NCBI RefSeq assembly: GCF_018446385.1
Contig: NC_056001.1
Location: forward strand, 108,912,436-108,976,435
Reading direction: 5' to 3'
Length of the DNA: 64,000 nucleotides
From: Zingiber officinale
Taxonomy: Eukaryota > Streptophyta > Magnoliopsida > Zingiberales > Zingiberaceae
Positions 2,580-52,761 of this stretch are shown piece after piece; positions within the stretch are counted from its first letter, which is position 1, and the number at the start of each line of letters is the position of its first letter. Position numbers and translations under genes: made by a program. The notes under the pieces are model-generated. The model worked only from the letters and a program-made list of their open reading frames with translations, was not told where the DNA came from and made no database searches.

Positions 2580-2600
2580 TTATATATATATATATATATA
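2580..2600. repeat. (TA)n microsatellite at left MULE end
   Basis: A run of about ten TA units stops eight bases before the outer end of the left inverted repeat. A second TA run directly abuts the right end (11517-11532). This suggests insertion into or beside a TA microsatellite. Confidence 0.85.
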
Positions 2601-2608
2601 CCCACACA

Positions 2609-3035
2609 GAAATATTCCGCTGCGGAACGTTTCTTCAATACTGCTGCGGATCTGTCCTCGTGGCAAGTCCGTGTCACTTTTTTTTGTTAGAGTATATTAA
2701 TTTTTTTCCAATGTTTTCCGCAGCCCTAATTTCTCCTTCGTCCTTCCTCCTTCATCGCGACGCGGCCGCAGAAGAGGAACATCCATAGCCGCGAGGAAAC
2801 TACACAGATTTCTCCTTCCTCCTTCCTCGCAATGCGGCTACAGAAGAAGAACACCCACAGGCGTCTTCCTCCTTCGCCGCGCCAAGCTACAGCAAGGGTT
2901 TCCACCCCTTCCTCCTTCGCCGCGTCAAGCTGAAGCTAGGGTTTCTGCCCCTTCCTCCTTTGTCGCGACGCAACCGCAGAAGAGGAACACCCACAGGCGC
3001 CTTCCTCCTTCGTCGCGCCAAGCTGAAGCTAGGGT
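2609..3035 (+). repeat. Left terminal inverted repeat of the MULE
   Basis: Matches the reverse complement of 10868-11516. After the palindromic tip comes a T-rich spacer (ATGTTTTCCGCAGCCC), then GC-rich units containing GCGGCCGCAGAAGAGGAAC and TTCCTCCTTCGTCGCG, and the inner edge AGCTGAAGCTAGGGT (3021-3035). The left arm has fewer of the ~70-bp units than the right arm, so the arms differ in length. Confidence 0.85.
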
Positions 3036-4089
3036 TTTTCTGCACCTCACTCCCCTCCATTTGTTCTCCTTAACGGTACAACCCCTTCTCATTGCTTGGG
3101 TTTCTGTTCTCTAATCATTTTTGACCTATAGTCTTGGTTTTCTTTTCAAAAATCGCTTGTGACCTATCTTGAATTTATGCATTTTGTAATATATAATATC
3201 TTGAATATTTGTCTGGGAGATATTGATTAAACCCTAAGTGATATAGGATTCATTAAAGATATTTTAAACTGCTTGGTGTGTGTATATAACTGTTTGACGT
3301 CACTTTTTTTTTTCTCTTGCCCTCTATTGTTATAGGACTTCATATTTCATCTCTTACACTGTATTGATTTTAACAGTAAATTATGAATGATCTTTGGGGA
3401 AGGGGTTGTACTAGTGTTCCTCACCTATATTGTAAAAATGGATTTGAGTAGGTTGTGCATTAGAAAAAAAACATGATCATATCCTTACCAAACACCTTAT
3501 TTGAACCTCAAAGTACTTCGAAGCCTTAAAGCACTTTGCTAAAGATCTCCCAAACTCACCTGTATACTAGTTCCTAAAGCTGTCTTATACTTGTGAAGTT
3601 CCGATTGATGGTTTTATGGGTCTACAAGTAACCAGTTGCTTTCTTATTTTTCATCTTTTTGGAGATTGAGGACTAAACTTTGGGAAATAAAGGGTAACAC
3701 CAGTTTTTTGCTCATCAAGATTGACAAAGGAAAAGAGTAAATTTTAGGCATAACTGCATAAGATTTATTAGAATTTTGGAATCAAGAACTATACCTATGT
3801 GAGGGAGATATTAATTAAACCCTAAGTGATATATGATTGATATTATAAACACTGTAATCTATTCTAATTTCTTGTAAATTGGATTAATTTTGTCTCACTG
3901 CAAACATTGATATTTAGGTATTATAAAATATGATGTATCATAAAATTTAGGTATTTTAATGCAAATTGTGGCTACTTTTAATGTAAATTGGTCAAATTTT
4001 TCATAAAATTGTATGATTTCTCATTACTTAAGCAAATTGCTATTGTTTAGCTTAATTTAGTCAAATTTTATTTTTTAGGTTGTGCTTGA

Positions 4090-4458
4090 ATGACATCATC
4101 AAGTAATAACAACATCAACCATACCAAATATGAAACTGTGTGATGCAGGGACTGCGGACTAAGAGCATTGGTGCTGGTCTCTAGATCGATCAAGAACCCA
4201 GGGAGACTATATTATGGATGTAAGCATCATGGATGGTTAAAGTGGGTGAGGTCTGATACTGAAAATGAATACACTAATGATATACATTTTAGGATGTTGC
4301 CAAGAGTGGAGTCAAGGGTGGGGAGTGAACACATTGCTTATCCTGGACATAATATGGGAAATTGGAATGTACCGTTTATGGTCTGGATATTAGTGATAGT
4401 GAACTTAATTCTTTTGGCTATATACTTGTTTTGTTTGTTGGTTGGCCTAGTTAAGTAA
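4090..4458 (+). pseudogene. zf-GRF domain small membrane protein inside the MULE
   Basis: From ATG 4090 the frame gives a Ser/Asn-rich N-terminus, then a GRF-type zinc-finger signature (CGLRALVLVSRSIKNPGRLYYGC, residues ~22-44, with the CG start and the NPGRxYYGC core) and WLKWV. It ends in a hydrophobic helix at ~residues 98-119, with VWILVIVNLILLAIYLF visible. GRF fingers bind nucleic acid and occur in many short plant proteins with a C-terminal membrane segment. An in-frame TGA at 4141-4143 precedes the finger, and one of the Cys residues expected in the second half of the finger is missing. Either the frame is dead, or a splice (an AG acceptor lies at 4147-4148) removes the stop. The region upstream (3036-4089) could hold a 5' exon, but none is convincing. 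It may be a captured host gene. Confidence 0.6.
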
Positions 4459-4972
4459 TACTAGTATTGTAATGTGATAAAGAAATGCAATTATGGATGA
4501 TGTTGATATTTTTTTTTTATAATTTATGGATGGATATTAGTTTTGTGTTATGCTTATTACTAAACTTGTTGAAGAGATGAAATAGAACCAAGGTCTATCC
4601 TTTTATTTATGGATGTTTATGTTTGTCATGAACATCAAAATATTTCAATGGAACTATGGAATTTCAGAACAGAAAGCCCAAACAAACATATTTATCTCAG
4701 TTTCAAATATACTTTTGTAACGCAATGCCATATGCCTCTTATTGTTTACTCCATCTAGCAAGTTTTTTTTACATGAAAAACCCAATAAAATGGTTACGGA
4801 AATTTACCAAAGAGCGCATGTAAAGATCTAAATTTACCAAAAGGCATACGCTACTTTGAAAAGAAGTACGGTTTTGAAACATGCTAAAGAATCAAAAAAT
4901 AGTTGGAACAATTGAAAACACGAACCAATCTTGACCAGGGAACATTAAAAGGAGCCGAACACAGAGCCATGG

Positions 4973-7443
4973 ACAACATCCTCTGAGCCACCGCCGGATA
5001 TCATCACCAGCTCCACGATCGGAATTCGAACGAAGAGAAAGGAAAATCGACAGTACAAGGATATCTTGTTTTTCTGTTGTTAGGCCTGATATGAAGAGAT
5101 ATCAGGCCCAACATAATAACAAAAGAAAAAGGAAAAAAGAAAAAAAAAAGATTTAAGTTTTTCAAAATGTTTATGTTTGTCATGAACATCAAAATATTTC
5201 AATGGAACTATGGAATTTCATAACAGAAAACCCAAACAAACATATTTATCTCAGTTTCAAATATACTTTTGTAACGCAATGTCATATGCCTCTTATTGTT
5301 TACTCCATCTGGCAAGTTCTTTTTACATGAAAAACCCAATAAAATGGTTATGGAAATTTACCAAAGGGCGCATGTAGAGATCTAAATTTACCAAAAGACG
5401 TACGCTACTTTGAAAAGAAGTACGGTTTTGAAACTCACTGATCAACCTAGAGACCTTAGATTGCAGCCATTTCAGGTCCTATAGATTTCTAAAATTGCAA
5501 GGAATCCAAATGTACTCTTCATTGCTATTTTCGGCATTCCTAGTGGTAAACCAGAGGTTTTGAAAAACCTAAATCTCTCTTTCTTTCTTTTTTCCCTTTT
5601 TTCTTTTTTTTTCAAGGGCATGATATGGGGAGATATCAGGCCCACGTTGGGCCTGATATGAAGAGATATCAGGCCCACGTTTGGGCCTGATATCTCCCCA
5701 TATCAGGCCCTTGTAAAAAAAAAAGAAAAAAGGGAAAAAATGAAAAAAAAAGAGATTTAGGTTTTTCAAAATCTCTAGTCCCCACTAGGAAGCCAAAAAT
5801 AATAATGGAGAGCATATTTGGACTTATTGCAATTTTAGAAATCTATTGGATTTGAAATGACTGTAATCTGAGCTCTCTAGGTCGATCAGTGGGTTTCGGT
5901 CAAAATCCACTGACTTAGAGAATTCGGATTGAGCCCATTTCAGCTCATGTGGATTCCTAATGCTGCAAGGAGTTCAAATATGATATTTATTATTTATTTC
6001 AACTTCTAAAAGATCTTAAAATATAAAAACCAAGAATCAGCAAAATAATTCCTATACATTTTAGGTTTTTCAAAACCTTTAGTCCACCACTAGGAATGTT
6101 GGAAATAATAATGGAGAACATATTTGAACTCCTTGTAATATTAGAAATCCACAGGAACTGAAATGAGTGCAATCGGAGCTCTCTAGGTCCATCAGTGGGT
6201 TTTGACCGAAACTCACTAATCGACCTAGAGACCTCAGATTGCAGCCATTTCAGGTCCTGTAGATTTCTAAAATTGCAAGGAATCCAAATACTCTCCATTG
6301 TTATTTTCGGCATTCCTAGTGGTGAACCAGAGGTTTTGAAAAACCTAAATCTCTTTTTTTTTTCTTTTTTTTGCAAGGGCCTGGTATGGGGAGCTATCAG
6401 GCCCATGTTGGGCCTGATATGAAGAGATATTTGGCCCAATGTGGGCCTGATATCTCCCCATATCAGGCCCTTGCAAAAAAAAAAAAGAAGAAAAAAGGGA
6501 AAAAAAGAAGAAAAAAGAGAGATTTAGGTTTTTCAAAATCTCTAGTCCACCACTAGGAAGCCAAAAATAATAATGGAGAACATATTTGGACTCATTGCAA
6601 TTTTAGAAATCCATTGGATCTGAAATGACTGTAATCTGAACTCTCTAGGTCGATCAGTGGGTTTTGGTTAAAACCCACTAATGGACCTATAGAGTTCCGA
6701 TTGAGCCCATTTAAGTTCTTGTGGATTTCTGATACTGCAAGGAGTTCAAATATGATATTTATTATTTATTTCAACTTCTAAAAGATCTTAAAATATAAAA
6801 AGAAAGAATTAGCAAAATAATCCCCATACATTTTAGGTTTTTCAAAACCTTTAGTCCACCACTAGGAATGTCGAAAATAACAATGGAGAGCATATTTGAA
6901 CTCCATGCAATATTAGAAATCCACAGGAACTGAAATGGGTGCAATCAGAACTCTCTAGGTCCATCAGTGAGTTTTGATCGAAACTCACTGATCGACCTAG
7001 AGACCTTAGATTGCAGCTATTTCAAGTCCTGTAGATTTCTAAAATTGCAAGGAATCCAAATATACTCTCCATTGTTATTTTCGGCATTCCTAGTGGTGAA
7101 CCAGAGGTTTTGAAAAACCTAAATCTCTCTTTTTTTCTTTTTTCTTTTTTTTCCCTTTTTTGTTTTTTTTTTTGCAAGGGTCTGATATGGGGAGATATCA
7201 GACTCACGTTGGGCCTGATATAAAGAGATATCAGGCCCAACGTGGGCCTGATATCTCCCCATATCAGGCCCTTGCAAAAAAAAGGAAAAAAGGGAAAAAA
7301 AAAAAAAAAGGAGAGAGATTTAGGTTTTTCAGGTCTAACAACAGAAAAACAAGATATCCTTGTACTATTAATTTTCCTTTCTCTTCGTCCGAATTCTGAT
7401 CGTGGAGCTGGTTATGACATCCGGCGGTGGCTCAGAGGATGTT
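4973..7443. mobile_element. Nested foldback element with ~115-bp ends and repeated internal hairpins
   Basis: The left end (ACAACATCCTCTGAGCCACC onward, to ~5085) is matched in reverse complement by 7328-7443, giving inverted ends of ~115 bp. Between them, ~700-bp blocks repeat. Each contains a core of three or four hairpins of the form GGGCCTGATAT-NNNN-ATATCAGGCCC (cores near 5080, 5630-5710, 6375-6475, 7180-7275), flanked by T/C-rich and A/G-rich arms that pair with each other. A second palindrome sits on CTCTAGGTCNATCAGTGGGTTT. A segment at 4612-4885 is repeated at 5167-5435, so the left side has also been tandemly rearranged. Reading frames here are by-products of the repeats. No transposase is present. 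Related sequence lies at 50684-53600. Confidence 0.75.
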
Positions 7444-8315
7444 GTTCTAGTGTTTTGCTCTAGTGTTTAAGAATTCACTAATCAGATACATATACATTCT
7501 TTTTAATAGTGTTCTAGATAGAAAGGTTATATTCTTTTGCATTTACACAAGATCAGAAGATAGACATTCTTTCTCCTTTGGGATTCTTTATTTTTAATTT
7601 GATGCTGAGACTTAGCATATATACAATTACAGTAATTCAAAAGTGGTCATAGATTAGTGTTTCTCGGTAGATTGTTTGTAGCTATTTTGATTACAAGTTG
7701 AAGATGTGTACTTTATTTATTGATCATTTATTACCGTGCAATGTAACTGGAGTACAACAGAATAAACTCTCTCACAAGCACTATGCCACCTTGCACAGAA
7801 TAAACTCTCTCACAAGTACTAAAATTAATAACCATGATATTGCACTAACAATTATCTCAACAAACAAAATAACTCAATTACATCTACTAAATCCAAATAA
7901 AATACATGGTATCAATTGTCCAGATTGTGACTGTGACTGATACAAGTGTGCATTAGTTGCTCTCAAATTAACATCGACATGTCATTCTGCTTTTCTGAAC
8001 AAAGGTTTTCTATCCCGGGCAATCTAGCTGCAATCTTCCGAAAGAGAGCCTGAAAAAGTATGTATTCTGAAACAGTATGCGTTAGAAATATGCATTCTAT
8101 ACTAGATTCTTTAGAAGTATGCATTCAATACAAAAAAATGCACTAAATCAATCAAACATACAAATAAAGGAAATAGATGAATACTAACCATAGATAATTA
8201 CAACATCCTAGCGCATGTTACTAGAACTTGTAACAATAAAGATAATTTATTAATCTCATTTTCTCAATACAATAAATCACTATAATTTAACAAATTAAAA
8301 CTTTGATAGTACCCG

Positions 8316-10669
8316 CTATAGATCCCAAATCAAGTTCATATGTGTCGTCAAGACTGATATGATTATTATTTTCAATCGATCTGATAATTGACACATTATC
8401 ATATAATAAATATAATAAAATAAATTTATTTGCAAGAAAACATATAAAAAAATGAAAAAAATGAATGACACAGACCCTTGTTGTAAATTGGGACAGTTAC
8501 GCTTGTCATGTGATACTCCTCGTTGTCCACATCCACGACAAAGCCTAGAATTTGATGTAGATTTCTCCTTTGATGATTTTAATCTCTTCCCACATCCTTT
8601 TATTCTTACTATAGAATGATCAATAATACCAAGGCTCTCATCAATGGATTTTTTTCTTTGACTTCTATCACTGCATATTGTACTAATGGACATCTCTTGA
8701 ATTTTATTGTAGATACAATCGAATTGTTCATCCAAGAAGATTGTCCTTTCATTACTCAAAGATGCATCATCAACTAACATGGAAGCTTTATAGGATAACC
8801 TCGAATGCCTCGACATCAAATACCTTTCTGAATCTGGATCATCAATGACATTTTACTCCCCTAAAGCATATATTGCTCCAACTTTTGCATCTCGTGTCCA
8901 TCATTTGAGTATATACGTATCAGGCAAATGAAACACTTGGTTGATACGAAAAAAAGCTAACATATGTCTGCATGGAATGCCCTCAAACTCAAATTTTATG
9001 CAACTACACGATATGTAATCCCTTTGTTTGTCATGCGTGAGCACTCTTTATTTTGAAGAAGAACTTTGAAATTTCATCACGTGGTAAACCGCTGAGGCAA
9101 CTCCTGTAAATGACTGTTGCACATAATAACTATGACTCTCGATCACTTCACTTTGAAACTTCAGCCATTTCTTTTTTGTGTACAGCTTAACCATTTGAGT
9201 TTCCATTGGCCAACTTGTATTAACCCTGGGCTGCTCATTCATATCAATATGGTCCGCAATTAACTCATTGTGTCTTTGATGTCTCAATGCTCTATTAAAA
9301 CATGTGATAAAATCCATTAATGAGTTCTTATTTGAGATATATTTCTTGAAAAATGCATGTGAGCCTTCAGATCTTTGGCTACTTGACATTCCTGCAGAAA
9401 ATACATGACTAAAATATGTTGGCACCCATCTGTGTCTCAATTCATACATCAAGGACAACCAATCATTTTTCTCTAAGTTAGCATCCTTGATAGTCTCTTC
9501 CCATGACTTCTCAAAATCATCAGGTTTTGTAGAATTTACAATGACGTTCTTTATGCTGTGATAGTGATTTCGAAAAGTCAAAGGGTCTAATTTATCTGGG
9601 AATTTATTCAATATGTGCCATAAACAATATCGATGCACCATTTGAGGGAAACTTGTGCAATTGCTTTTGTCATAGCAGGATCCTGATAAGTGATGATAAT
9701 GTTTGGTGCACCTTTAGGCATGGCTTCTGAGAACTTTGTAAGAAACCAAACAAAAGACTCAGTTTTCTCATCACTAAGAAACCCACAACCAAAAAGAATT
9801 GTCTGATGATGATGATTAACCCCTACAAATGGTGCCAAAATTAAGTCATATTTGTTAGTGTTATATGTCGTATCAAATACAACTACATCACCGAATACAC
9901 TGTATGCCCTCCTTAATATATGATCAGCCTAAAAACACCTACTAAATCTGTTATCTGAATCTATCTCATAATCAAAGAAAAAAGCTGAATTTTTCTCTTG
10001 CTCGGATGTAAAAAACTCTATCAATGTTTCGGCATCAATACCCTTTTGTTCGTCTCTTAAATTTTTCTCCAAATTTCTAATATCTCTTTCTGTGCAACCA
10101 GCTCCCTCAGGCCCTCCATACTCTATCTCCAATATTCGCATTTGCTGACAAGTTGGTACATTGGCCTCTGAAAACTGTTTTGTCAATGTTTTCTTTGCTG
10201 CTGAAACATTACGATGTGACCGTAGCAAATGCACCTTTGATGGAATCGAGAGTGGATGATTATGAGTTTCTATGAAGTTACTGACAACTCAATTATGTCC
10301 AGTCTGTTTCTTTGCAAATGCAATATTCGACTTACAACCTGTTCTAACTGCGCCACGTGCTCTTTCCCTTGATACATGATCAACTTTTGCATGTTTATTC
10401 TACCGCATTAGATATGTATGACCCTCTTTAAAGCAAACAATTTGTTTCCACGTTACTTCATTTGTTATCTTATTTTTCTTGCTTGTGTTTATCATTGAAC
10501 TAAATCCAGCTTCTCGTGCATATTGGTTATAGAACGAATATGCCTCCTCTAGTGATGAGAATTCCATTCCAATTTTTGGCTTTCTATCATCTACAACTTG
10601 GGGAATAAATTCTTGATCATCAACTCTATTTTCTTCCATTTCTGAGAGTCCTCGCATTATATTTGACAA
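8316..10669 (-). pseudogene. FAR1/FRS-type MULE transposase, decayed
   Basis: Minus strand. Near the N-terminus is the FAR1 DNA-binding domain (MEFSSLEEAYSFYNQYAREA, ~10580). The MULE transposase core follows (VVVFDTTYNTNKYDLILAPF then GVNHHHQTILFGCGFL, ~9780-9900; YQDPAMTKAI and HRYCLWHILNKFP, ~9600-9690). Then come a SWIM zinc finger with CSC...CRHM (~8958-9022) and a CCHC knuckle CRGCGQRGVSHDKRNCPN (~8487-8545). This order is that of FAR1-related proteins and their transposase ancestors. It is broken: in-frame stops lie at about 10400, 10287, 9929, 9048 and 8856, at least two at positions where the family has Trp (FWADHI, HNWVVS), and there is a frameshift near 9640. Domain order is otherwise intact, so decay is fairly recent. 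The plausible ATG is at 10657. Confidence 0.85.
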
Positions 10670-10867
10670 TAGATAAGTAGATAAATAAATAAAAATTATA
10701 ACTTATTTTTTATAAAGTAAAAATGGCAAACAATTTGATAGAGAAAAGTTCTAAATTGAATAAGAATAAATAAATAACCTCTATCTCTGTTGCATTGAAA
10801 AACTAAACAAGTCCTTAAAGATGTCCTCTAAGTTAAACACAGCAAAGTATAAGTCCTTCAAGATGTT

Positions 10868-11516
10868 ACCCTAGGTTCAGCTTATCGCGACGAATGAGGA
10901 AGGCGCCTGTGGGTGCTCCTCTTCTGCAGTTGTGTCGCGACGAAGGAGAAAGGGGCAGAAACCCTAGCTTCGGGCGGCCTGTGGGTGTTCCTCTTCTGCG
11001 GCCGCCTTGCGACGAAGGAGGAAGGAGGAAGGAGGAAGGAGGAAGGAGAAATATGTGGAGTTTCCTCACAGTTGTGGGTGTTCCTCGCAGCTGTGGGTGT
11101 TCTTCTTCTGCGGCCGCATCGCGACGAAGGAGGAAGGAGGAAGGAGAAATGAGGAAGGAAGAAGGAGAAATCTATGGAATTTCCTCGCGGCTGTGGGTGT
11201 TCCTCTTCTACAGCCGCGTCGCGAGGAAGGAGGAAGGAGAAATCTATAGAGTTTCCTCGCGGCTGTGGGTGTTTTTCTTCTGCAGACGCATCGCGAGGAA
11301 GGAGGAAGGAGAAATCTGTGGAGTTTCCTCGCGGTTGTGGGTGTTCCTCTTCTGCGGCCGCGTCGCGATGAAGGAGGAAAGACGAAGGAGAAATTAGGGC
11401 TGCGGAAAACATTAGAAAAAAACTAATATACTCTAACAAAAAAAAAAGTGACACGGACCTACCACGAGGGCAGGTCCGCAGCAGTCCGGAAGAAACGTTC
11501 CGCAGCGGAACGTTTC
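10868..11516 (-). repeat. Right terminal inverted repeat of the MULE with ~70-bp tandem units
   Basis: Reverse complement of 2609-3035, expanded by extra tandem units. Units beginning near 11058, 11175, 11249 and 11320 each read TTTCCTCGCGG(C/T)TGTGGGTG, then TTCTTCTGC, CGCGTCGCGA and a GGAAGGA run. The GGAGGAA repeats create several long but meaningless open frames on both strands. The tip at 11492-11516 is a near-perfect palindrome. Confidence 0.85.
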
Positions 11517-11532
11517 TATATATATATATATA
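11517..11532. repeat. (TA)n microsatellite at right MULE end
   Basis: About eight TA units lie immediately outside the right MULE terminus, mirroring 2580-2600. Confidence 0.85.
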
Positions 11533-13540
11533 GATAATTTTATTATTCCGTATATGTGCACATCCTAATTTTTTTTATTTAAAAGTTTTTTTATTCTTAA
11601 TACTATAACCTAACTTATAAATTTTAAAATTTTAAAGATAAAATTTTATTGACACAATCTAAAATAAAAAAAAAATAATCAAGATGCCTCATATCATCTA
11701 AGGCAACTCAACATACGAGGGACGCCCAGACCCCCACAGTTTAATATTATTGATTAATTGAAGAGCTTAATAATAGATTCAAGGATGAAACCATCTAATT
11801 TTTTAAACTATATTGTGCTTTGGAATCTAAAGAAATTTAAATTTATTAATGTTGATCACATCTATAGATTTATTGAGAAATTTTATCCTTTTATTTTGAT
11901 CACAAGATTTGCACTTGAAAATGTAATTGGATCACTATAAATTTGATATTATTGATCATGAAAAATTTTAGAATTTATAATTATTTCTAAATTATGTCAT
12001 AAATTAGTTGAAACAAATAAGTAATTTTTTTTCTGATTTATGATATTTTATACATAATAATTATATTATTTACTTATATATTAAATTTAATATATCTATT
12101 TAATTGACAAATTTATTCACCTTATTTTAAGTCAACAACATAACGAGTATTTTACATCATAAAATTTGTTAACCAGCTCCTCATAATAAAATGGAAGAAT
12201 TTTTAATAGATTCTATAATTAATATACGTTAGAGTTGATTGAAAAAATTAAAATCAATATGATAATTAATATTTTGATTTTAAGAAAAAAAATCTAAAGT
12301 ACAACTTTAATACTATTTTTTCCGTATTTTTAAATATATTGAATATTGAATAAATTTTTATATTTTTATAAAAATAATATTGACCGTCTTTATATTTTTA
12401 AATTAATTAATTAATTATATCAATTATAATTCACCATGAATCTTACATAATTTAAAATCTGAGGTACGGCCGAGTAAAATAGATACAAATTTGGTGATCT
12501 TCAAATTCATTTAATTGACTTTTATTGACTTGTAAAGAGTTTTTTTTCTTTCTTTTTCTACTTTGGAATATATGCTGTCTTACTTTTTATCTGTTGGTGT
12601 CGTGGCCACTGTCCGCACGCGAATCACAATGTGCTATGCGGGAATTAGCTTAAGTCAACGCAGTCGATTGAATGGGAACAGTTGAATAAGTCTGCCGTCG
12701 TCATATATCGTGACGTCACTCTGAGGTAGACTGCACACTGTTCTACCAATAGGGGATTTTTTTGACTTTGACCGTTGCTTTTAATAGTTGGATTGTGCTG
12801 ACGTTGACTTGCAAGCAATGGTGTGACACTCTTTATTCTTCAAGGACCGGGGCGCGCATTCCCACACATGGTGTGTCGAGTTAAATAACAAGTATTGATT
12901 TTAGAAAAAAAAAAATACAATTGAGTATTTTTTTTAATATTTAAAATTGCCTAAATAATTTCACGTGTCAATGCGTCACTAAATATTTGGAGCCGCGTCA
13001 AATCAATTTTTAAGCACGTCAAAGGTGTGACGATAGCCATTTTTGGCATCTACCAAATAGTCACGTGTCCAATAATTAATAGGTCCCGCGTTTTCTAATC
13101 AAATGTCGAAGCGTAAAAGAACTATCCGTCGCGTGCATGTTTTGATTTATTTTGATGAGTAATAAAAAAAAAATTATAAGACTGAGATTGATCATATTAA
13201 AAATAATCAATAAAATAATCTAGATTTATTATTAAAAGCATAAAAAGGAAGCGGCATCTTGTTTATGTAGTTGCTGAGTATTTTAAATACGATGTGTTTA
13301 CTCCGACGGAAGAGAGAGGAAACTCCTACGGAAGGGAGAGGCAAGGGTTCAAAAGTATGAATTTGTAAGCTTTCTTCCTAGTTGATGTTCAGGAGGGAGC
13401 ATGAGCGGATAAAAATTAAGTTAAAATAATGGTCGGTCCATTTTTAAAAAGGTATTAAAGTATTATAATGATCAGTTCTATTTTGGTATCACCTCAAGAT
13501 TCATGCACAGAAAAAAAAAATACATTATAAAAGAAAGTTT
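11533..13540. other. AT-rich intergenic region with an orphan promoter-like motif cluster
   Basis: No gene is recognised. Between ~12500 and 13140 base composition is more balanced and cis-motifs crowd together: repeated TTGAC W-box cores (e.g. ~12525, 12763, 12803), a TGACGTCA palindrome at 12711-12718, and two CACGTG G-boxes at 12962-12967 and 13062-13067, exactly 100 bp apart. No coding sequence follows that would use them. Confidence 0.4.
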
Positions 13541-17937: not shown

Positions 17938-19423
17938 ATGACATATCCAGTGATCCCGTCCGAAGGCTGAGTCGGACGAAGGCTGGTCGCGACGGCCTGG
18001 TTGCTGACGGAAAGTCGTGGGTGATTCGGCTCCCACGGGCGGCTGACGATGCTGCAGGTCCCTGCACACACTCAGGCGATCCCCCTCCTCACGTTAGAGA
18101 CCAGAACCCAGGGAAAAAGTTCCCGGATCATGCCCTCCGACGCTCAAGTCAGGTACTTTTTCCCCAGAAAACGCAAAGAGACAGAAAAAACTGACTGAAA
18201 GTGAAAAGTTGTGGAAAAAAAGTGACGAGAGAGTGCTCCCCGCGTATGAAGAAGCCTCTCCTTTTTATGCCCCCTTCTCGCTTCTAGAACCTGTCATCCT
18301 GTCAGAAAGCGTTAGACGCTGGGCTTTGTCGTGTAGTCTCGGACACCTGTCGTGCTGCTATTGATCGTGAAAGCATCTTCTTGTTTTCGAAACCTCCGCC
18401 TTTACACATGAGTTTTGTCTTGTAATGAAGGTCATCTGTCAGACTGCTATTGGTTGTGAAAGCATCTTCTCATTCCGAAACCTCCGCCTTCGCACGTATC
18501 GCTGGTATGTAGTGATTACCCCTTGACGGGAAATTGTGATTCCCCGACTCCCGCACGGCTTAGCTCATCCGATCTATTGTGGCCTGCATCTGCCTCGCAT
18601 CCTCCGATCAGATCCAACCTCTAAGCATCACCTGCCAGTCGGGCTGACTCTGAACAGCTCTGCCAATCCCGGTCTGTACCCTACGCTTTGTATTTCCTGG
18701 CCCTCGACCGCAGGCCTGTAGATCGGGTCATCTCTAAACAGTTCTGCCGATCCCGATCTGTACCCTGCGCTTTGTATTTCCTGGCCCTCGACCGCAGGCC
18801 TGTAGATTGGGCCATCTCTAAACAGCTCTGCCGATCCCGATCTGTACCCTGCGCTTTGTATTTCCTTGCCCTCGACCGCAGGCCTGTAGATTGGGTCATC
18901 TCTAAACAGCTCTGACGATCCCGATCTGTACCCTGCGCTTTGTATTTCCTGGCCCTCGACCGCAGGCCTGTAGATCGGGCCATCTCTAAACAGCTCTGCC
19001 GATCCCGATCTGTACCCTGCGCTTTGTATTTCCTGGCCCTTGACCGCAGGCCTGTAGATCGGGTCATCTCTAAACAGCCCTGTCGATCCCGATCTGTACC
19101 CTGCGCTTTGTATTTCCTGGCCCTCGACCGCAGGCCTGTAGATCGGGTCATCTCTAAACAGCTCTGCCGATCCCGACCTGTGACTTGTACCTCGCCTGTC
19201 GTCTCCCTTTGTCTTCCTACTGCTTTGCCCCTTCGATCAACAAGTCTGCCGGGCCTCTGGCCATCCCCTATGCTCGATTCTGACTGCCCCGTCAGCTTGA
19301 CTATTGACTGCCAAGTCACCTTGACTATTGACTGCCACATCATCTTGACTTTTGACCGCTATATGACCTTGACCCTCCTTATCCTTTCCTTTTGGGCCCC
19401 TCCATTGTCAGCCGTATCACAGG
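17938..19423 (-). mobile_element. Ty3/gypsy-type LTR (minus orientation), probably solo
   Basis: Read on the minus strand it opens TGTGATACGGCTGACAATGG (19423 downward) and near its end carries CCTGACTTGAGCGTCGGAGG followed by TTTTTCCCTGGGTTCTGG, the arrangement of gypsy LTR 3' ends in this window (compare 58085). No internal coding region is attached on either side, so a solo LTR is the simplest reading. It contains the 84-bp minisatellite. The right-hand boundary is clearer than the left. Confidence 0.55.
18640..19180. repeat. 84-bp tandem minisatellite, about six units
   Basis: The phrase GCAGGCCTGTAGAT recurs with TGTA at 18717, 18801, 18885, 18969, 19053 and 19137: exact 84-bp spacing. 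Each unit includes CTAAACAGCTCTGCCGATCC and TTTGTATTTCCTGGCCCT. Since 84 is a multiple of three and the unit lacks stops in some frames, long repetitive frames open on both strands. These are artefacts, not genes. Confidence 0.95.
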
Positions 19424-27095: not shown

Positions 27096-27179
27096 ATGCT
27101 CTGATCACAACGACTCTCTGTTCTTGCGCAAGCTCCGGACTCTCGAAGATCCATCAAGGAGCAATAGGAGATGGTGTTT

Positions 27180-29337
27180 ATGAGAACTGGAGTGCGTGCA
27201 GTTCACCAGGCCCTCACTGCTGAGGTCGCCTCAGTTCTCAAGCTCTCCCTCGACCTGGCGGCGAGGAGAGGCCATGCTCAGGTCACACCCCTCCATGTTG
27301 CTGCCACCCTCATCAGCTCCTCCTCTGCCTCCTCCGACTTACTCAGGAGAGCTTGCCTCAAGTCCCAGCCGCACCGCCCCTCTGCCTTCCACCACCCTCT
27401 CCACTGCAGAGCTCTTGAGCTCTGTTTCAATGTGGCTCTCCACAGGCTTCCCGCCGCCACCTCTCCCTTCTCCGGCGCTCTCCTACCTTCCCCTCCCTCC
27501 CTCTCCAACTCTCTCATCGCAGCCATCAAGAGGGCCCAGGCCAACCAGCGAAAGGGCAGCATTGAGCTCGACCAACAGCAGCCTCTGTTGGCCATCAAGG
27601 TGGGAATGGAACAACTCATGCTCTCCATTCTCGACGACCCCAGTGTGAGTAGGGTGATGAGGGAGGCCGGTTTCTCTAGCAGATGCATCAAGAGCCATCT
27701 CGAGGAAGATGCCTATGCTTTGAGCCAGTCCTCGCCGTCGCTGAGTGAGGACCTGAGGATGGTTATAGAAGCGATGCTCAGGAAGCAGGGGAGCACCAAC
27801 ACCGTTGTGGTGGGGGACTCTGGCTCTTCGTTGGAAGGCCTTGTGGCCGAGCTGATGAGGAGGTTTGGCAGGAGTGAGATCCCCGACGAGCTCAGACACG
27901 CCAGTTTCATGAATCTACAACTCTCCCCTTCCCACCTCCGGCTCATGCGTAAGGCCGATGTGGAATCGAAGGTATCTGATCTCCGAAGAACCATCAATTC
28001 TCTAGCATCTGGTAGAAATGGCATCATCATCTACGCAGGCGACTTGAGTTGGGCAGTGGATGATGAAGCAACGGAGCACATGGTTGCTGCGATGGGCAGC
28101 CTGCTCTCTGAGTTCAATAGCAGCGCAAAGAACAGGGTCTGGCTGTTGGCCACCGCAAGCTACGGCACCTACCGGAAGTGCCAAACAAGGCAGCCTTCTC
28201 TCGAAATTCTATGGTCCCTCCAAGCTGTGGTGGTTCCCTCAGGTTGGCTTGGCTTGGGCCTCCAAGCCTCCAGGTGAGATATCAGTGATCGAAATCTGAA
28301 AGATCTCAAACAACACTAGATTTAATAGACTAAATGCATCCATTTTTCATGTTTGCAGTAGCCTCGATTCGAGGGTGTCAAATATCTGCCAACTCCCCGT
28401 TGAACTACTCGATCTGCAGCGCCAACTGCAAGAGGAAATCCCTTGGCAATCGAACAGCATTCCTGCAATCATGAAAGCATTGCATGACTGTTCTACAGGC
28501 GATAAGGTCATGGCACTGCTGATTAAAGGGAGCGATTACATCGCCAAGAGAAGAGTAGCATTGGTCATGGCCAGGTCCATTTTTGGCTCGACGGATAAGC
28601 TAATACGGATTAAGCGAGATGATTCGTGCTGCAAGATCGTCATGGGTGCCATAAGAAGGGCGGCGCAGAAATGCATAGTCTTGGTGGAGGATATCGATCG
28701 AATGAGCGATCATTTCGTTAAACCATTCACAGATGCCTTAAAAGTTGGATCTTTTAAGGACGGTTTAGGAGAAGAAGTTTGCTTAGCTGATGCGATCTTC
28801 ATACTGACAACTTCTCAGGTGACCAGATTAAAGAGTGCTAATGACGTCAGTAGGGATGAAGATGCATCATCATCCAGTGATCTTGAGAGGAGTTCGAAGA
28901 GGCTGCGGACAGAAGATCACGGCCGTTTCGATCTTAACTTCGAACCGTATGTTAACGTAGAGGAGGAGACTGAATGCATCAGCTTCCATCTCCCACGGGA
29001 GCTTCTGCAAACCAGTGTTCAGCTCAGTTTAAATGCCGGGGTGGGTCAGTACCAGGAACTGAAGGTCAGTCTTCTCACAAAGCTCCATCGAGCGTTCGAG
29101 GAGATGCAGAATGGAAAGGTCAGAAAGGGGAATCTGGTTGTCGATCCAGAAGTGGCAGAGGAGCTAATGCAGGCGTCTGGTTTCTTCCTCGAGAGCTTCT
29201 TCGAGAAGTGGGCGAGAGAGGTGATCCGTGCGAATCTACAAACTGCTCGAGATGGCGGCGGGAACGTGAGGTTGAGTTTGCAAGGTAGAGAGAGACTCCA
29301 AAATGCATGGTTTCTTGGCTTCCCTGCTGCCAAATAG
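27180..29337 (+). CDS. SMAX1-like (SMXL) Clp-ATPase-related protein, shortened
   Basis: Two exons, 27180-28273 and 28359-29337, with a GT-AG intron; 690 residues. The start is placed at the second ATG because family members begin MRTG; an ATG nine bases earlier (27171) is in frame. Residues 1-~185 are a double Clp-N domain (AVHQALTAEVASVLK, RRGHAQVTPLHVAATL, RRACLKSQPH). Next comes a D1-like region with VVVGDSG (~205) and GIIIYAGDLSWAV, ending LEILWSLQAVVVPSGWLGLG. Exon 2 holds a D2-like region (QEEIPWQSN, KGSDYIAKRRVALVMA, Walker B-like IVLVEDID at ~471-478) and an EAR-type FDLN motif at ~555, which in SMXLs recruits TOPLESS corepressors. SMXL3/4/5/8 relatives usually run ~850-1000 residues; the linker between ...ASSSLDSRV and the D2 region is largely absent here. 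The RGKT degron of D53-type members is not seen, so it is more like the strigolactone-independent branch. Likely a nuclear repressor. Confidence 0.82.
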
Positions 29338-39244: not shown

Positions 39245-42200
39245 TGTTAGATTATATAACTTAGATTATATAATCTATTAGAATTATTTGTTATAGCCTT
39301 AAGGGCAATTTGGTCTTTTACCTTTTCAGTTTAGGATTTAGATATAGTCTTTTACCTTTTAAGTTTATGGTTTAGATTTTTTCTTGTAATTAGCTATATA
39401 AGGCCTTGTACTCTTTATTTCTCAATTTAATTTAGATTCAATAATATGACTAGTTTTTCCCTTATCTTATTTCTTACATGGTATCAGAGCGATTTTCCTT
39501 CTTTAACCTAATTTTTTCTGCCGCCCCCTATTATTGCTTCATGTTGCTGCTGGCGTCTCCTATTGCTGCTATTGATTTCTGCGCCGACATCTATTTTCTG
39601 TCCTGCTGCTGTTGATTTCGACGCTGACATCTATTTTATATCGATTGCGCCGACGTCCTATGTTGCCGATTTCTACATTTGACATCCTTTTCTGTCTCAG
39701 ATTCTTTGTGTGACCACGGGTCGTCCTGATATCAGTTTTTGCAGATCATACAAATGTATATCCTTACAGTTTGGTTATTCTGAGAATTATTTGCTCTGTC
39801 ATCATGTCTGGTTGTGCAGATGCTTCATGGAAATCTGATTCATATTTGTTTGAGCAGTTTCAACAGTTCCTTGCTTCACAACCCTCTGTCAAATCAGCTT
39901 CCTCTCATATAGGTTTGTCGTCGTCAAGTATTTCAAGTATATCTTCATCCTTATAGATTTTGGATTCTGGTGCCTCCCATCATATGTCATCTTTTGTTTC
40001 TTTTTCTCCCACTTCATCTATATCTATTGTGACTACTGATGGTACTCCTATGTCATTAGTAGGTGTTGGTTCAATTGTTATATCTTCTTTATCTCTTACT
40101 AATGTTTATTATATTCTGAGTCTTATTTTAAATCTTGTTTTTGTTAGTCAATTATGTGAGTCTTGATACCTAGTCTCTTTTTCTTCATCCAATTGTTATG
40201 TACAGGACCCGCAATCTCAGAGGCTAATTGGGACAGGCCATAGGCAAGGAGGACTCTATATTTTAGATCAACTCAAATTACTAGAAGTTGTAGCTTCGAG
40301 TGTGGATTTATCGTCTTTTCATCTAAATCATTCATCTTCTGATTTTTATTTGTAGCACTCTCGCTTAAGTCATATTTTAGCGCCTCGTTTGCAGTTTTTA
40401 GCCTCTACAGGAGCATTAGGACCTTTAAAAAGTTCTGATATTTCTGATTGTGTGGTTGTAAACTGGCCAAATTTTCTGCCTTACCATTTTCTAAAAGTCT
40501 TTCTTTTTCTTTTGCTCCATTTAATCTTATCCATTCTGATATGTGGGGACCCTCTCCTATTCCTACAAAAGGGGGGTCAAGGTATTATGTTTCATTTATT
40601 GATGATTGCACTCGTTACTCTTGGGTCTATCTTATGAAACACAGGTCTGATTATCTTACAATTTTCAACAACTTTAGAGCTCTTGTGAAAACTCAACATT
40701 CTAGTGTCATAAAGTGTTTTCGTTGTGATTTGGGGGGTGAATACACTTCGAATCAATTTTCACATTTACTTGCTTCTGATGGTATTATTCATCAAACCTC
40801 GTGTACAGATACTCCTGAACAAAATGGCGTGGCTGAATGAAAACATAGACATCTTATTGAAACAGCCCGTTCATTTTTATTGTCTGCCAATATTCCTAAT
40901 GCCTTTTCGGGGGAAGCAATCCTTACTACTGCTCATGTCATTAATAGAATTCCAACATCACACAATTCAGGTTTGTCACCTTTTGAAAAATTGTATGGGT
41001 ATGCTCCTGTCTATTCTTCTTTGCGTGTTTTTGGTTGTACTTGCTTTGTCCTTCGTCCACATGCAGAGCGTAATAAGTTAGTCTCTCGGTCTGCTCTTTG
41101 TGTCTTTCTGGGTTACGGTGTTAGTCAAAAAGGATATCGTTGCTTTGATCCCGTTAGTCAAAAATTGTATGTCTCTCGTCATGTTGTGTTTCTTGAGCAT
41201 ATTCCATTCTTTTCTATTCCGGCTAGTTCGCATAATATGACAAAGTCATATCTGCTTTGCATTGATCCTTTCAATACTGATACTGAGGAAGATTCACCCA
41301 CAAATCCTACTAGTAGTTCAACTGAATCTGGTACTTTGGTTCCCAAGATATCTGCTCCACATGTTCCTCCTTCTGCCACTACCCAATTATCTCCTGAGGT
41401 TGCAGATGATCCTTCTCTCCACCGTCGTTAATCCACTCGTGTTCGTAAGTCTACTAAACTACCGAATTTTGCTTACTCTTGTTATTCCCATTCTTTTGCT
41501 TCATTTGTTGCATCTATTCATTGTCTTTCTGAGCCTGAGTCCTATAGAGAAGCTGTTTGTAATCCACTTTGGCAGAGTGCTATGACTGAGGAACTAACTG
41601 CTTTGCATCAGAGTCATACATGAGATACGGTTCCATTGCCACCAGGAAAACATACTATTGGTTCTCGTTGGGTATATAAGATCAAAACTAAATCTGATGG
41701 ATCTATCGAACGATACAAAGCTCGTCTTGTTGCTAAAGGATATTCTTAGAAGTATGACATGGATTATGAAGAAACATTTGCTCCTGTTGCAAAAATGACA
41801 ACTGTTCATACTCTGTTTGCTGTTGCTTCTGTTTGTCGATGGAGAATATCTCAGATGGATGTCAAGAATGCATTTTTAAATGGTGATTTTCATGAAGAAG
41901 TTTATATGACACCTCCTCCTGGTATTTCACACAAACCTGATGAAGTTTGCAGGCTTCGTAAAGCGCTTTATGGTCTCAAACAAGCACCTCGTGCTTGGTT
42001 TGAAAAGTTCTCTACAGTTATTACTTCGTTTAGTTTTCATCCTAGTAATCATGATTCAACATTGTTTATCAGATGTACGAATGCAGGTCATATTCTTTTA
42101 TCATTATATGTTGATAACATGATTATTACTGGTGATGATTTTGATGGAATTGCTTCCTTGAAGTCTGAGTTGGCTCATTGTTTTATTATGAAAGACTTGG

Positions 42201-42929
42201 GTATACTACGCTACTTTCTGGGCATTGAGGTTGCTTATTTCCCGAAATGTTATCTTTTATCTCAGTCAAAATATATATTTGACCTGTTTGAGCGTGCTCG
42301 TCTTACTGATAATAGAGTTGTTGATACTCCTATTAAGACTAATGCTCGATATTCTCCATCTGATGGCTCACCTTTGTTGGATCCTAGTTTGTACAGAACT
42401 ATTGTTGGAAGCTTAGCTTATCTCACCGTGACTCGTCCAGATATTGCGTATGTTGTTTATATGGTTAGTCAATTTGTTGCTGCACCAACTACAGTTCATT
42501 GAGCTGTTGTTCTTCGTATTCTCAGATATCTTTGGGACACTCAATTTCAAAGTCTTTTATTTCCTTCTACGTCATCTCTTGAGCTACGTGCATACTCTGA
42601 TGCGGATTGGGCTGGTGATCCTACAGATCGCAAATCTACCACTGACTTCTGCGTTTTTCTTGGTGATTCCCTGAAGGCTTCTGGCTGTAGCATCTTAAGT
42701 TTCAGGGGAGATGTTAGATTATATAATCTATTAGAATTATTTGTTATAGCCTTGAGGACAATTTAATCTTTTATCTTTTCAGTTTACGATTTAGATATAG
42801 TATTTTATCTTTTCAGTTTATGATTTAGATTTTTTTCTTATAATTAATTATATAAGATATTGTATTTATTTCTCAATTTAATTTGGATTCAATAATATGA
42901 TTAATTTTTTTGTTGTCTTATTTCTTACA
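39245..42929 (+). mobile_element. Old Ty1/copia retrotransposon
   Basis: LTRs of ~234 and ~218 bp (39245-39478 and 42712-42929) begin TGTTAGATTATATAA and end TTTCTTACA. The primer site TGGTATCAGAGCG follows the 5' LTR and a purine tract AGGGGAGA precedes the 3' LTR. Flanks are GGTTG/AGTTG. Parts in copia order: protease (LDSGASHHM, ~39960), GAG-pre-integrase and integrase (~40340-41440), reverse transcriptase (~41600-42500, with WRISQMDVKNAFLNGD and LYVDNMIITGDD) and a short RNase H portion. Gag is not recognisable. It is broken, with several breaks; LTRs differ at about one site in eight by eye, so it is old. It lies ~310 bp upstream of the beta-COP start codon. Confidence 0.88.
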
Positions 42930-43241
42930 AGTTGAACTCAATTGAAATAAAAATAAGGAAAAAAAAAAACAAAGAAAGGCGTCTTAGCGTTAGATCCACC
43001 TAAAGTCTAAAGTCTTCCGCTTCGCTTCTCACTCTCCTTCGTCGCTTTCCGACCACCGTCCCATCGCTGGCGACCCAAATCTCCACCGGAATTCGTCGGC
43101 AATTTCGTGCAGGAGCCATTTGATCTTCAGATCTCACCCGTTACCTGCCTTTGTTCACTACCCTCAGTTCCGACCCGCCTGCTCCAACACGGATCTAGGG
43201 GTTTGAGGAAATTTCCCGGCGAAGTAGGCGTCGGAGCAAAG
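42930..43241 (+). promoter_or_regulatory. Proximal promoter and 5' UTR of beta-COP
   Basis: Beyond the copia LTR the sequence turns C/T-rich and GC-rich (TCTAAAGTCTTCCGCTTCGC, CTCACTCTCCTTCGTCGC), typical of a housekeeping plant leader. No clear TATA box is seen. The reading frame is open upstream to 43107, but family alignment places the start at 43242. Confidence 0.5.
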
Positions 43242-46200
43242 ATGGAGAAGTCGTGCTCGCTGCTGATCCACTTCGACAAGAGATCTCAGGCGATGGCCAA
43301 CGAGATCAAGGAGGCTCTCGAGGGCAACGACGTGGAGGCCAAGATCGATGCCCTGAAGAAAGCCATCATGCTCCTCCTCAACGGCGAATCCCTCCCCCAG
43401 CTCTTCATCACCATCGTCCGCTACGTCCTCCCCTCCGAGGACCACACCGTGCAGAAGCTGCTGCTCCTTTACCTGGAGATAATCGACAAGACGGATGCCC
43501 GTGGCCGCGTGCTTCCGGAGATGATCCTCATCTGCCAGAACCTCCGCAACAACTTGCAGCACCCTAATGAGTACATCCGCGGCGTCACGCTGCGCTTCCT
43601 CTGCCGCCTAACTGAGCCTGAGATCCTCGAGCCGCTTGTCCCCTCCGTCCTTACCAACCTCGATCATCGCCATCCCTTTATTCGCCGCCACGCGCTCCTT
43701 GCCATCGCTGCCATCTACCGCCTTCCGACCGGGGAGCAGCTGCTTCCTGATGCACCTGAACTGATCGAGAAGACCCTGTCCTCCGATCAGGACCTCTCTG
43801 CCCGACGCAATGCCTTCCTTATGCTTGCCTCGTGCGCCCAGCCGCGGGCGGTCGCATACCTCTTGTCCCAAGCTGACCACGTCGCCAACTGGGGCGACCT
43901 CCTCCAGATGGCCGCTCTGGACCTCATCCGCAAGGTCTGCCGCGCTAACCCAGGGGAGAAGGGTAAGCACATTAAGGTCATCATCTCCCTCCTCAGTTGC
44001 CCATCTGAAGCAGTAGTCTACGAGTGCGCCAGCACCCTTGTCTCCTTGTCATCGGCCCCCACAGCCATCAGGGCTGCTGCTAACACCTACTGCCGGCTCC
44101 TACAATCGCAGAGTGACAATAATGTGAAACTCATTGTGCTTGATCGTCTCAACGAGCTGAAGACGTCACATAGGGAGATCATGGTGGAGATGATTATGGA
44201 TGTGCTCCGTGCACTATCAAGTCCGAATCTTGACATCAGGCGCAAGACGTTGGACATTACCCTTGAGCTGATCACCTCGAGGAACATTGACGAGGTGGTG
44301 CTCACACTCAAGAAAGAAGTTGTAAAGACCCAGAGCACTGAACTCGATAAAAATGGGGAATACCAGCAGATGCTAGTGCAGGCTATCCATTCATGCGCGA
44401 TCAAGTTCCCTCAGGTTGCTAGTACAGTCGTTCATTTGTTGATGGATTTCCTTGGAGATTCTAATGTGGCTTCTGCTATCGATGTTGTTCTCTTCGTGAG
44501 AGAGATAATTGAGACAAACCATAAGCTCAGGGTTTCGGTAATAACTAGGTTGCTTGACACGTTTTACCAGATTCGTGCTGCAAGAGTTTGCTCATGTGCT
44601 CTGTGGATCATTGGTGAGTACTGCCTTTCGCTTTCAGAGGTGGAGAGTGGAATTGCTACAATTAAGCAGTGTCTCGGAGACGTTCCCTTCTACACTGCCA
44701 CTGAGGAAGGGGAGACAGCTGATGCTTCAAAGAAACTCCAGCAGGTTAATTCTTCTGTTACTGTCTCTTCAAGACGGCCTGTGGTTCTTGCAGATGGCAC
44801 ATATGCAACACAAAGTGCTGCCTTGGAAACTGCTTTGTCAGCGCCAACAGTTCTTCCTGGATCTTTGGCTTCACCTGGAAATCTTAGGGCATTAATCTTG
44901 TCTGGCGACTTCTTTGTAGGAGCAGTTATTGCTTCTACTTTGACTAAGCTTGTTCTGAGATTGGAGGAGGTCCAACCATCAAAGGCTGAAGCAAACAAAG
45001 CATGCACTGACGCTGTGCTAATCATGACTTCTATGTTGCAGTTGGGGCAATCATCATTTCTTCCGCACCCAATTGATAACGATTCGTATGACAGGATTGT
45101 GCTGTGTATAAGGTTGCTCTGCAACACTGGTGATGATGTGAGGAAAATATGCTCGCAGTCATGTCGCCAGAGTTTTGCAGCAATGCTTGCAGAGAAGCAA
45201 TTCCAAGAAAATGAGGCGATTAAAGCTAAGGCCCAGATTTCCTATGCCCAGCCTGATGATCTTATTGATTTTTACCATCTGAAGAGTCGCAAGGTAATCA
45301 CTTCAGATATATTTCTCTTGATTGACAATGAAAGATCATCTACATTCTCTTGATAAGCTGAGTATTATAAAACTTTTCTTTTAGCCTAAGAAGCAATCAA
45401 CTACCAAACATGACTATAGAAGATCTCTTCATTTTACCATTTAATTTTATTCTTATTAATGCTACTTTTTGTAAATAATTCCTTATTGAACAATAGATTA
45501 TAAATATATGAAAATCTTACAACAATTCCATATCTATTCATCTTAGATATTCCTTTACCGTTTTTTTTCCTTTACATCTCATTTACGTAGTTTTAGTTCT
45601 TTTAAATTAAAAACCTTTAGTTCTTACTGATATTCAAGTTTCTGAGTTTATTTTATTCTCACAGTTAGCAAAATATTGGTAAGCAAATGACATACACCAT
45701 GAATATTTATTTTCAAGGTTTCTTAGGCTTACACCATGTACTTAAACATGCCTGAGCTTGGTTCATTTGTCACTGATATCGAAAATTTTCTTTAGCATAT
45801 ATATTACTACAAGGATGATGATAATTTCTTGTTAGTGTTGTTTCATATAGTTGGCTTTGACCATGTGAAATTTGAGTTTCGGGTCAACATGTATGTTTTC
45901 ATAAATGGACAGTCCAAGTTTATGTGATTGATTAATTGACTTTGTTCCTGCACTCGTGAAAGTTTGAATTTTTTATTATATACCTTCATGGGTATTGTCA
46001 TTAAGTGACTTTGTTATTGCAGTAACATGCGATAGTATGAAGTCACTCCCTACTTAATTCAATTGTAGATGCATGCCCAACAATCTTTTCGAATTCAACC
46101 TAAAATGCCTGTCACTAACTGAAAGTATTATTGTTTGAAAAGGTTTTATGTTACTATTTCCTACATTAATAATTCGTCTTTGTTTTCTGAAGAGCTGAAT

Positions 46201-49880: not shown

Positions 49881-50683
49881 ATTCGCTTTTTTTATCATTA
49901 TGATAGGATATTCAGATTATCATCTAGGTATTTATGATTTCATGCATAGTTATGATATATTTGAAGAATTTTTTTCTTTAAATGAGAAATGTAATAAAAG
50001 AATATTGGGATTTTAAATTGATTACCGCTTGTATTTCAATTTATGTTGATAGTTAATAGAAAATTTATATGGAGTCCGGTCATTATCCGGAATAGTCAAT
50101 AAGGATTATCATTTATTTATTGTCTTGGAATTTTAAATTACATTGTTCTCAGAACCTGGTCGGTTATACGTTGAACTAGGTCGTCGGGCTAGGGTGGTTC
50201 ATTTAGGTTTTTAATTTCTTTACAGATGTAAAAAACTTTTGTTGGTGGGTTCAGATACCCGTTGACTCGGATTGTCGGATGGTTTGGGTCCATTTAACCA
50301 TTGGTTGTCGGATTCGAACCCAAGTCTCACAATGAGAGCTATGGATCCTAACCATCTACACTGTTAAAATTTTATATGTTAATTAATTATTTAATAGCTA
50401 ATCAAAAATTTTCTTTTAATATATTATTATTCTTAATAATGGAATCGGCAATTTACCAAACGACATGTAGATTTAATATTTATTAAATAATGCACCTTTT
50501 AAATGTATGTATTTTCCATTTTATCTTTCTAACAAATACCTTTTCTTTTCTATGTATATTTCACTCTCTCTTCTATTCGTTTCTTTTATACATGCAACCA
50601 ATTTTATTTTTATTTTTCCGTTCCTCTCCTCTTTCCTCTTTCCTCTCTTTTTTTTCATGCGTGCATGTATAACATAGGCCTGA
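49881..50683. other. AT-rich intergenic, no gene
   Basis: Around 50150-50350 are GTCGG-rich words and a B-box-like GGATTCGAACCC, repeat-derived but unassigned. Short frames at 50490-50827 are pyrimidine-rich noise. Confidence 0.35.
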
Positions 50684-51359
50684 TATACAAATCATATCAG
50701 ACTCATGACGTTTAAAGATTAGTTGATTTTTTGATAACATTTTAATACATTTAGATAAATCGAAATAATCAATAAATAGCATATTTGAATTCTTTGTAAC
50801 ATCAGAAATCGATAGAAATTGATTCATTATTTATTTTGGTTTCTACGAAAGTGTAAAATTATAATAATGATGAATCGACAAAAATCCTCATGTGTGGGCC
50901 TGATATGAGTCTTATCAGGCCCAACGTGGAATTTTTTTTACTGATTCTTTCTTATTATATTTTAACATCTTCTGGAAGTCAAAAAAAATAATGGATAGCG
51001 TATTTGAACTCCTTGCAACATCAGAAATCCACAGGAATTGAAATAGACGTAATTGGAGCTCTCTAAGTCCATTAGTGAATTTTGATCAAAATTCATTGAT
51101 GGACCTAGAGATTTCCGATTGCACGCATTTTAGTCCCTATGGATTTCTAAGGTTACAAGGAGTTCAAATATAATATTCATTCTTTATTTTAACTATTCAA
51201 AGATATTAAAATATAATAAGAAAGAATTGACAAAAATTTCTGCTATTCATTATTTATTTTAACTATTCAAAGATATTAAAATATAATAAGAAAGAATTGA
51301 CAAAAACCTCTACGTTGAGCATAATCTGTGGCTCAACTTAGGCATGATATAAATTAGAG

Positions 51360-52110: not shown

Positions 52111-52761
52111 TCTTAATATCATAATTTCATTACTAATAATATGAATCATATTAGGTCCAAGGAGGGTTCTTTTTACTAATTATTTTTTTATTATATTTTA
52201 ACACATTATAAAGTCAAAATAAATAATAGATAGTATATTTGAATTCCTTGTAACATTAAAAATCTACAAGAATTGAATGAATGTAATCAGAGCTCTCTAG
52301 GTTCATAAATGGATTTTGGTCGAAATCCATTGATAGACCTAGAAAGCTCTAATTACATTCATTTCAATTCCTATAGATTTATGATGTTGCAAGGAGTTCA
52401 AATATACTATCAATTATTTATTTTGGCTTCTAAAAGGTGTTAAAATATAATAAAAAATAATCAGTAAAAAATCCCATATGTTGGGCATGATATGAATCAT
52501 TTCAGGCCCATCTAAGTTGGGTTTGATATGATTCATATCAAGTTCACAATTGGGATTTTTGTTGATTCTTCCTGATTAAATTTTAAGATATTCTAGAAGC
52601 TAAAATATGATGATGCTTAACAAAAAAAATATTTTTTTTTTTTGAAAAATTGAATATTAGTAACGTATTTACCACCTACATGATGTGATTTCAGATCGGA
52701 CTAAAAACATAATTCACATAAATCACATCTCTAATAAAAAAAAATCCTTTGCATAAAAATT

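Follow-up and report, generated by a model that had tools for sequence, protein, structure and literature searches.

The hairpin block at positions 4973-7445 of the window, the 64,000-nucleotide stretch of Zingiber officinale DNA analysed here (C16:108912436-108976435), is best read, with a probability of about 0.82, as a rearranged copy of a non-autonomous, Mutator-like foldback family nested in a larger FAR1-type MULE. We coined the label F for this family, which owns the hairpin array. The genome searched comprised 3,090,333,446 bases in 211 contigs.

Anatomy of the hairpin block

Ten 28-bp hairpins of the form GGGCCTGATAT-N6-ATATCAGGCCC were identified in the block with a scan that tolerated at most 6 mismatches across the 22 stem bases: a hairpin on its own at 5082 and nine grouped into three equal clusters, at a spacing of about 33 bp within them (Table 1). 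The cluster loops read GGGGAG, GAAGAG and CTCCCC in clusters 1 and 2, and the middle loop of cluster 3 is AAAGAG. Because the outer loops in a cluster are mutually complementary (GGGGAG ... CTCCCC), each cluster caps a larger palindrome whose arms are pyrimidine/purine, as exemplified in cluster 3 by the arms at 7140-7221 and 7228-7309 (82 nt, 87%). The hairpin clusters (H) alternate with CTCTAGGTC palindromes (P), located at 5875, 6181, 6643 and 6953 with a half palindrome at 5444, in the order H-P-spacer-P-H and with a module period of about 775 bp (778 and 772). The inverted ends of the block, at 4973-5089 and 7329-7445, are 117 nt long and 93% complementary.

Altogether, 51.5% of the block lies within 12-mers whose reverse complement recurs in the block. 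The same measure had a mean of 1.3% and a maximum of 4.0% in 100 dinucleotide shuffles, and a mean of 4.8% and a maximum of 27.5% in 57 other window stretches of equal length. The inverted-repeat content is far beyond chance, bearing out the foldback architecture of serial hairpins and palindromes that a preliminary description had proposed. The same description had expected transcripts of the block to fold as long dsRNA, and this is also what RNA folding predicted, with z = -15.1 for 5060-5760 and -42.3 for 6540-7445 (shuffles equally good, 0 of 20 for each). No known RNA family matched in the window at gathering scores, and no tRNA genes were found there. The repeated structure is not confined by the left border originally drawn at 4973, since 4613-4880 recurs at 5167-5434 (96%), with one copy outside the block and the other inside.

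Table 1. Features of the hairpin block, its borders and its carrier, in window coordinates.
Feature	Position	Strand	Remarks
Carrier left terminal inverted repeat, including TA-run edge	2589-2860	+	90% over 274 columns to 11263-11536
Tandem-doubled stretch: carrier sequence, F terminus, host fragment, single hairpin	4613-5166	+	268 bp, 96%
Left F terminus	4797-4859	+	meets carrier sequence at 4796/4797
Host fragment A (upstream of GRAS-domain gene)	4854-5059	+	4973-5059 is most of left end
Single 28-bp hairpin	5082-5109		loop GAAGAG; hairpin scan
Hairpin cluster 1, three hairpins	5616-5710		repeat analysis and hairpin scan
Two CTCTAGGTC palindromes and intervening spacer	5789-6310		centres near 5900 and 6205; palindrome search
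Hairpin cluster 2, three hairpins	6377-6470		repeat analysis and hairpin scan
Two more CTCTAGGTC palindromes and intervening spacer	6557-7085		centres near 6668 and 6978; palindrome search
Hairpin cluster 3, three hairpins	7178-7271		arms 7140-7309; repeat analysis and hairpin scan
Inverted duplicate of part of fragment A	7359-7445	-	most of right end; 7359-7438 host-aligned
Host-derived fragment B, probable	7458-7764	+	adjoins block; 86% C16:40435851, 85% C15:49672652
Carrier transposase gene, broken	8901-10702	-	FAR1, MULE and SWIM pieces in different frames
Carrier right terminal inverted repeat	11263-11536	-	adjoins TA run; pairs with 2589-2860

The carrier MULE and the borders of the block

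The block sits inside a larger Mutator-like element of about 8.9 kb (about 2589-11536), classed as a MULE by its long terminal inverted repeats and by a MULE-type transposase, which is present in pieces. Pfam detected PF10551 (7.7e-22, 9608-9928), PF03101 (7.5e-8, 10400-10702) and PF04434 (7.5e-8, 8901-9047) in this stretch, which is interrupted by stops and frame changes; the scan of the two longest transposase frames returned nothing at 0.001, and the domains came from other frames. Both carrier borders are located in TA runs, where the target duplication (8-11 bp expected for a MULE) is unreadable. Genome-wide, the carrier left terminus (2595-2720) gave 38 matches, and the transposase stretch 9450-10250 is present at least 40 times, with 93-97% identity in the copies other than the window's own, among the best 40 of 1,226 candidates. 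The transposase-bearing segment 8001-10693 recurs at two further loci (L056 and L057; 94%) with the same two borders and in different, mutually similar surroundings; judged from this likeness, another, commoner MULE group may have the same transposase as the carrier.

Several features lie elsewhere in the window. Open frames matching the SMAX1 nucleotide-binding domain (27168-28277) and the adaptin N-terminal region (43011-45353) represent typical plant genes, pieces of copia-type reverse transcriptase and gag occur at 41750-42502 and 55346-56866, respectively, and an 84-bp tandem repeat at 18648-19181 (6.4 copies, 94% matches) is open in several frames.

The preliminary description had taken the block to be bounded by inverted ends of about 115 bp, which would make it a self-contained foldback element moving as 4973-7445. 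Such ends do exist, and their complementarity together with their recurrence in 10 other chromosomal copies or halves speaks for this reading. However, no target duplication is visible at 4972/7446 when the sequence is read directly, the ends consist mostly of host DNA (see below), and in 20 of 21 retrieved loci that have an inverted end (L009-L029, counting the two in the window) the sequence continues into the window's carrier flank, mostly at 94.6-98% identity. The ends therefore do not mark the boundary of an element, and a self-contained element is hardly credible, being largely refuted. The one exception, L015 on C3, is without carrier flank on its left side, and at L013, about 21 kb distant, the carrier sequence resumes, suggesting that an insertion or rearrangement took place later; L026 on C2 has the right flank only.

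A mere local rearrangement, named in advance as the outcome that would speak against an element, is contradicted by the segment beside the block: among 56 matches to 7440-7960, ten places hold 356-521 of its 521 bases at 89-100%. These are on C2, C3, C4, C7, C11 and C18, with two each on C15 and C16, and they do not amount to ten independent loci because those on C15 are probably allelic to those on C16. The contigs seem to pair as homologues, and the two composite copies on C16 and on C15 are 1.4 and 1.5 Mb apart, respectively. When the flanks of the C11 carrier copy are joined, all 591 bases match C12:35221749-35222329 (91%); by sequence, this appears to be an empty site, as expected of a carrier that moves as a unit, and we call it only related because the region is locally repeated.

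A genome search with 4960-5120 clarified the composition of the inverted ends. It returned 54 matches, comprising 21 of at least 82 bases, all at composite copies, 31 to the hairpin part only, and 2 at a host locus (L030 on C16 and L031 on C15, which are probably allelic). Downstream of the host locus is an open frame encoding a GRAS domain (9.9e-26). The locus matches 4854-5059 in the case of L030 and 4868-5059 in that of L031, and 7359-7438 in inverse orientation; the alignment to fragment A is gapped, at 73% with gap columns counted. By these alignments, most of both ends, about 87 bp of each 117-bp end, is host-derived, the left end being mostly copied host DNA and the right end mostly its inverted duplicate. 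Fragment B (7458-7764) is a probable second host-derived piece, and its matches on C16 and C15 are located 38 and 76 kb from the host locus of fragment A.

Family F and the origin of the window copy

The genome-wide search with the hairpin core, which had been proposed as a check, identified 5,512 sites without stem mismatch in 3.09 Gb when the loop was left free, and 0 with the reversed control. The P core occurred at 2,953 + 2,968 sites within 2 mismatches and the F terminus at 124 + 132 sites within 3 mismatches (256 in total), with controls at 0 in both cases. Free-standing F termini read CGGCAATTTACCAAA... and are composed of repeats of about 30 bp. Both termini were recognised by pattern in 3 of the 7 fetched free-standing loci (L045, L070 and L072), which show long inverted termini and internal palindromes, and one terminus only in L044, L046, L047 and L071. 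Exact 9-bp target duplications were found in 2 of the 4 copies examined, L070 (TTTAATTTA) and L045 (AAAATAATT); that of L072 is ambiguous (poly-A), and the truncated right end of L044 is unreadable. The L070 site is empty on C4, with a single target copy in which one base differs (97% over 449 columns), and this empty allele on the homologous chromosome confirms the L070 target duplication.

F is thus a mobile family, haplotype-polymorphic at least at L070 and with a target duplication typical of MULEs, and on the basis of its termini, 9-bp duplications and empty allele it looks like a non-autonomous foldback MULE. Its termini are other than the inverted ends of the block, so that the latter do not serve as termini of the hairpin family either. 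A minimal search for a transposase gene bearing F termini found none, and none of the fetched F insertions is in a TA microsatellite. The loops vary among F copies, with GATTCC and GGAATC present in L070 and L072. The same window contains a second F copy at 50443-53600, partial and more diverged, with a left terminus (CGGCAATTTACCAAACG), several hairpins and palindromes; a search for its right F terminus found none.

The junction between family and carrier is located at the left side of the block. A query with 4600-4860 splits in two: the part up to 4796 matches block-less carrier relatives (five listed, 92-95%), and from about 4794 onwards the query matches F termini (17 among the matches listed, these being the best 40 of 346 candidates). 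The F left terminus is found in the window at 4798 and again at 5352 (5352-5355). The second copy of the doubled stretch is 5167-5434, cut short at 5434, and in the C7 composite copy 360 bp of it survive, some of them from the host fragment. On the other side, no convincing right F terminus was found in 2581-11540, the match at 8492, over 17 bases and with 4 mismatches, being taken as chance, so the window copy does not show the two F termini and target duplication of a foldback MULE. Since it has no recognisable right F terminus, it now probably travels only with the carrier. The segment 7446-7919, at the right border of the block, found no counterpart in the right part fetched from the C8 relative, which weighs against the reading proposed here.

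Alternatively, the array could have belonged to the interior of the carrier MULE from the outset, the free-standing F copies being escaped fragments of it. It occupies the same place in the composite copies, and the C8 relative also holds other F copies. Yet in four fetched carrier relatives the match breaks off at 4791-4796 and similar other sequence follows, without the array; F has termini, duplications and an empty allele of its own; and F-type cores number in the thousands, whereas carrier termini number in the tens (the 38 matches above). We consider an origin within the carrier unlikely, and read the array as a nested copy of F.

The array has continued to change. The five other composite copies (L039-L042 and L048) contain 8-11 hairpins, compared with 10 in the window, and where the window copy has one hairpin in the first cluster, L039-L042 have two. 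The variable hairpin number and the tandem arrangement of modules at about 775 bp are what would be expected if the array were chiefly satellite-like DNA, spread by recombination and replication slippage without transposition. This is very unlikely for a family whose termini recur at 256 sites and in which L070 stands out as a discrete insertion, having both a 9-bp duplication and an empty allele, and the reading of F as a transposing family is retained. The C15 composite (L039:4688-8884) carries an insertion of about 4.2 kb inside its middle hairpin cluster, with none in the window copy. This insertion has direct repeats of about 1.03 kb (94.8%) and a 5-bp ACGTT duplication, is LTR-retrotransposon-like, and resembles 54-57.7 kb of the window, the site of the copia-type gag.

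Arm-to-arm conversion within palindromes was considered as a driver of array change and rejected. Arm identity was 0.808 within palindromes (61 palindromes), 0.826 between palindromes of the same locus (0.856 in the best orientation) and 0.813 between loci (0.836); the arms are no more alike within than between palindromes, which argues against conversion, and whole modules seem to be copied. In the hairpin stems (111 hairpins from 13 sources), 9 pairs had changed on both sides, 8 of them to complementary bases, and 4.65 double changes were expected if independent. This pairing is a weak signal, as the copies are related and the hairpins were chosen by consensus similarity.

From this anatomy and from MULE biology as given in the cited passages of PMC4486113, PMC5907723 and PMC3310237, we infer how the window copy may have arisen. 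F would move by cut and paste, with a MULE transposase acting in trans on the repeated termini. Template switching during repair at the palindromes would lead to host capture, inverted duplication and array growth, and transcripts of the arrays could enter dsRNA silencing. F insertion, capture, inverted duplication and right-end loss would have followed one another in an order that we can only suggest. Foreign DNA beside or within hairpin clusters is present in the window lineage, in L070 and in L072. In L070 (1141-1591) and the middle of L072 it lies inside hairpin clusters, with a right junction common to both, and in L070 it is edged by 20-bp near-perfect inverted repeats. It is conceivable, although rather doubtful, that F modules are built and rebuilt by template switching at hairpin tips, where foreign DNA would also be captured and inversely duplicated at its borders, so that one family would combine transposition, array growth and capture.

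Comparison with known systems

The window illustrates in detail how a foldback family with thousands of hairpin cores can nest in an autonomous-type MULE, next to copied host DNA, and the paired haplotypes of the genome make insertions directly visible. The hairpin arrays are candidate sources of dsRNA and silencing signals, and F has enough copies to put this to the test. In its main text, the paper on the ginger genome (PMC8342452) makes no mention of mutator, MULE, DNA transposon, foldback or inverted repeat. In the indexed portion of the open-licence literature, the hairpin stem sequence appears as text in 7 papers, none of them on a plant transposon by title, and no description of the hairpin-triplet and palindrome architecture was found.

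MuTAnT of Medicago (PMC4486113) resembles F in its repeat-built foldback arms, 9-nt target duplication and relationship to MULEs, and its preference for TA microsatellites resembles that of the carrier. MuTAnT elements are mostly a few hundred bases long (144-bp terminal repeats in a 292-bp element), whereas F, compared by description, measures about 2-3.8 kb, has serial hairpin clusters and palindromes, and was inserted outside TA microsatellites in the copies fetched. FARE of Arabidopsis (Windsor and Waddell 2000, via PMC4486113), foldbacks with long palindromic repeats at both ends that are now placed with the MULEs, is similar by description. Among animal families, Tetris of Drosophila virilis (PMC4079207), a foldback transposon that gave rise to satellite building blocks, and the foldback transposon Tm1 of root-knot nematodes (PMC3169594) can likewise be likened by description.

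The SaTar / AgS-MULE elements of guayule and rice (PMC5907723) are also MULEs associated with TA and other microsatellites, and their non-autonomous members are thought to be mobilised in trans. Their arrays are arranged end to end, whereas F is nested inside its carrier. MULEs with multiple long terminal repeats (PMC3310237) share tandem-doubled terminal sequence and the acquisition of host sequence with the present case, but the piece doubled here lies within the carrier and contains an F terminus flanked by carrier and host DNA. There is precedent, taken one by one, for foldback and TA-associated MULEs, for host capture and for doubled termini, whereas the serial hairpin/palindrome architecture looks new.
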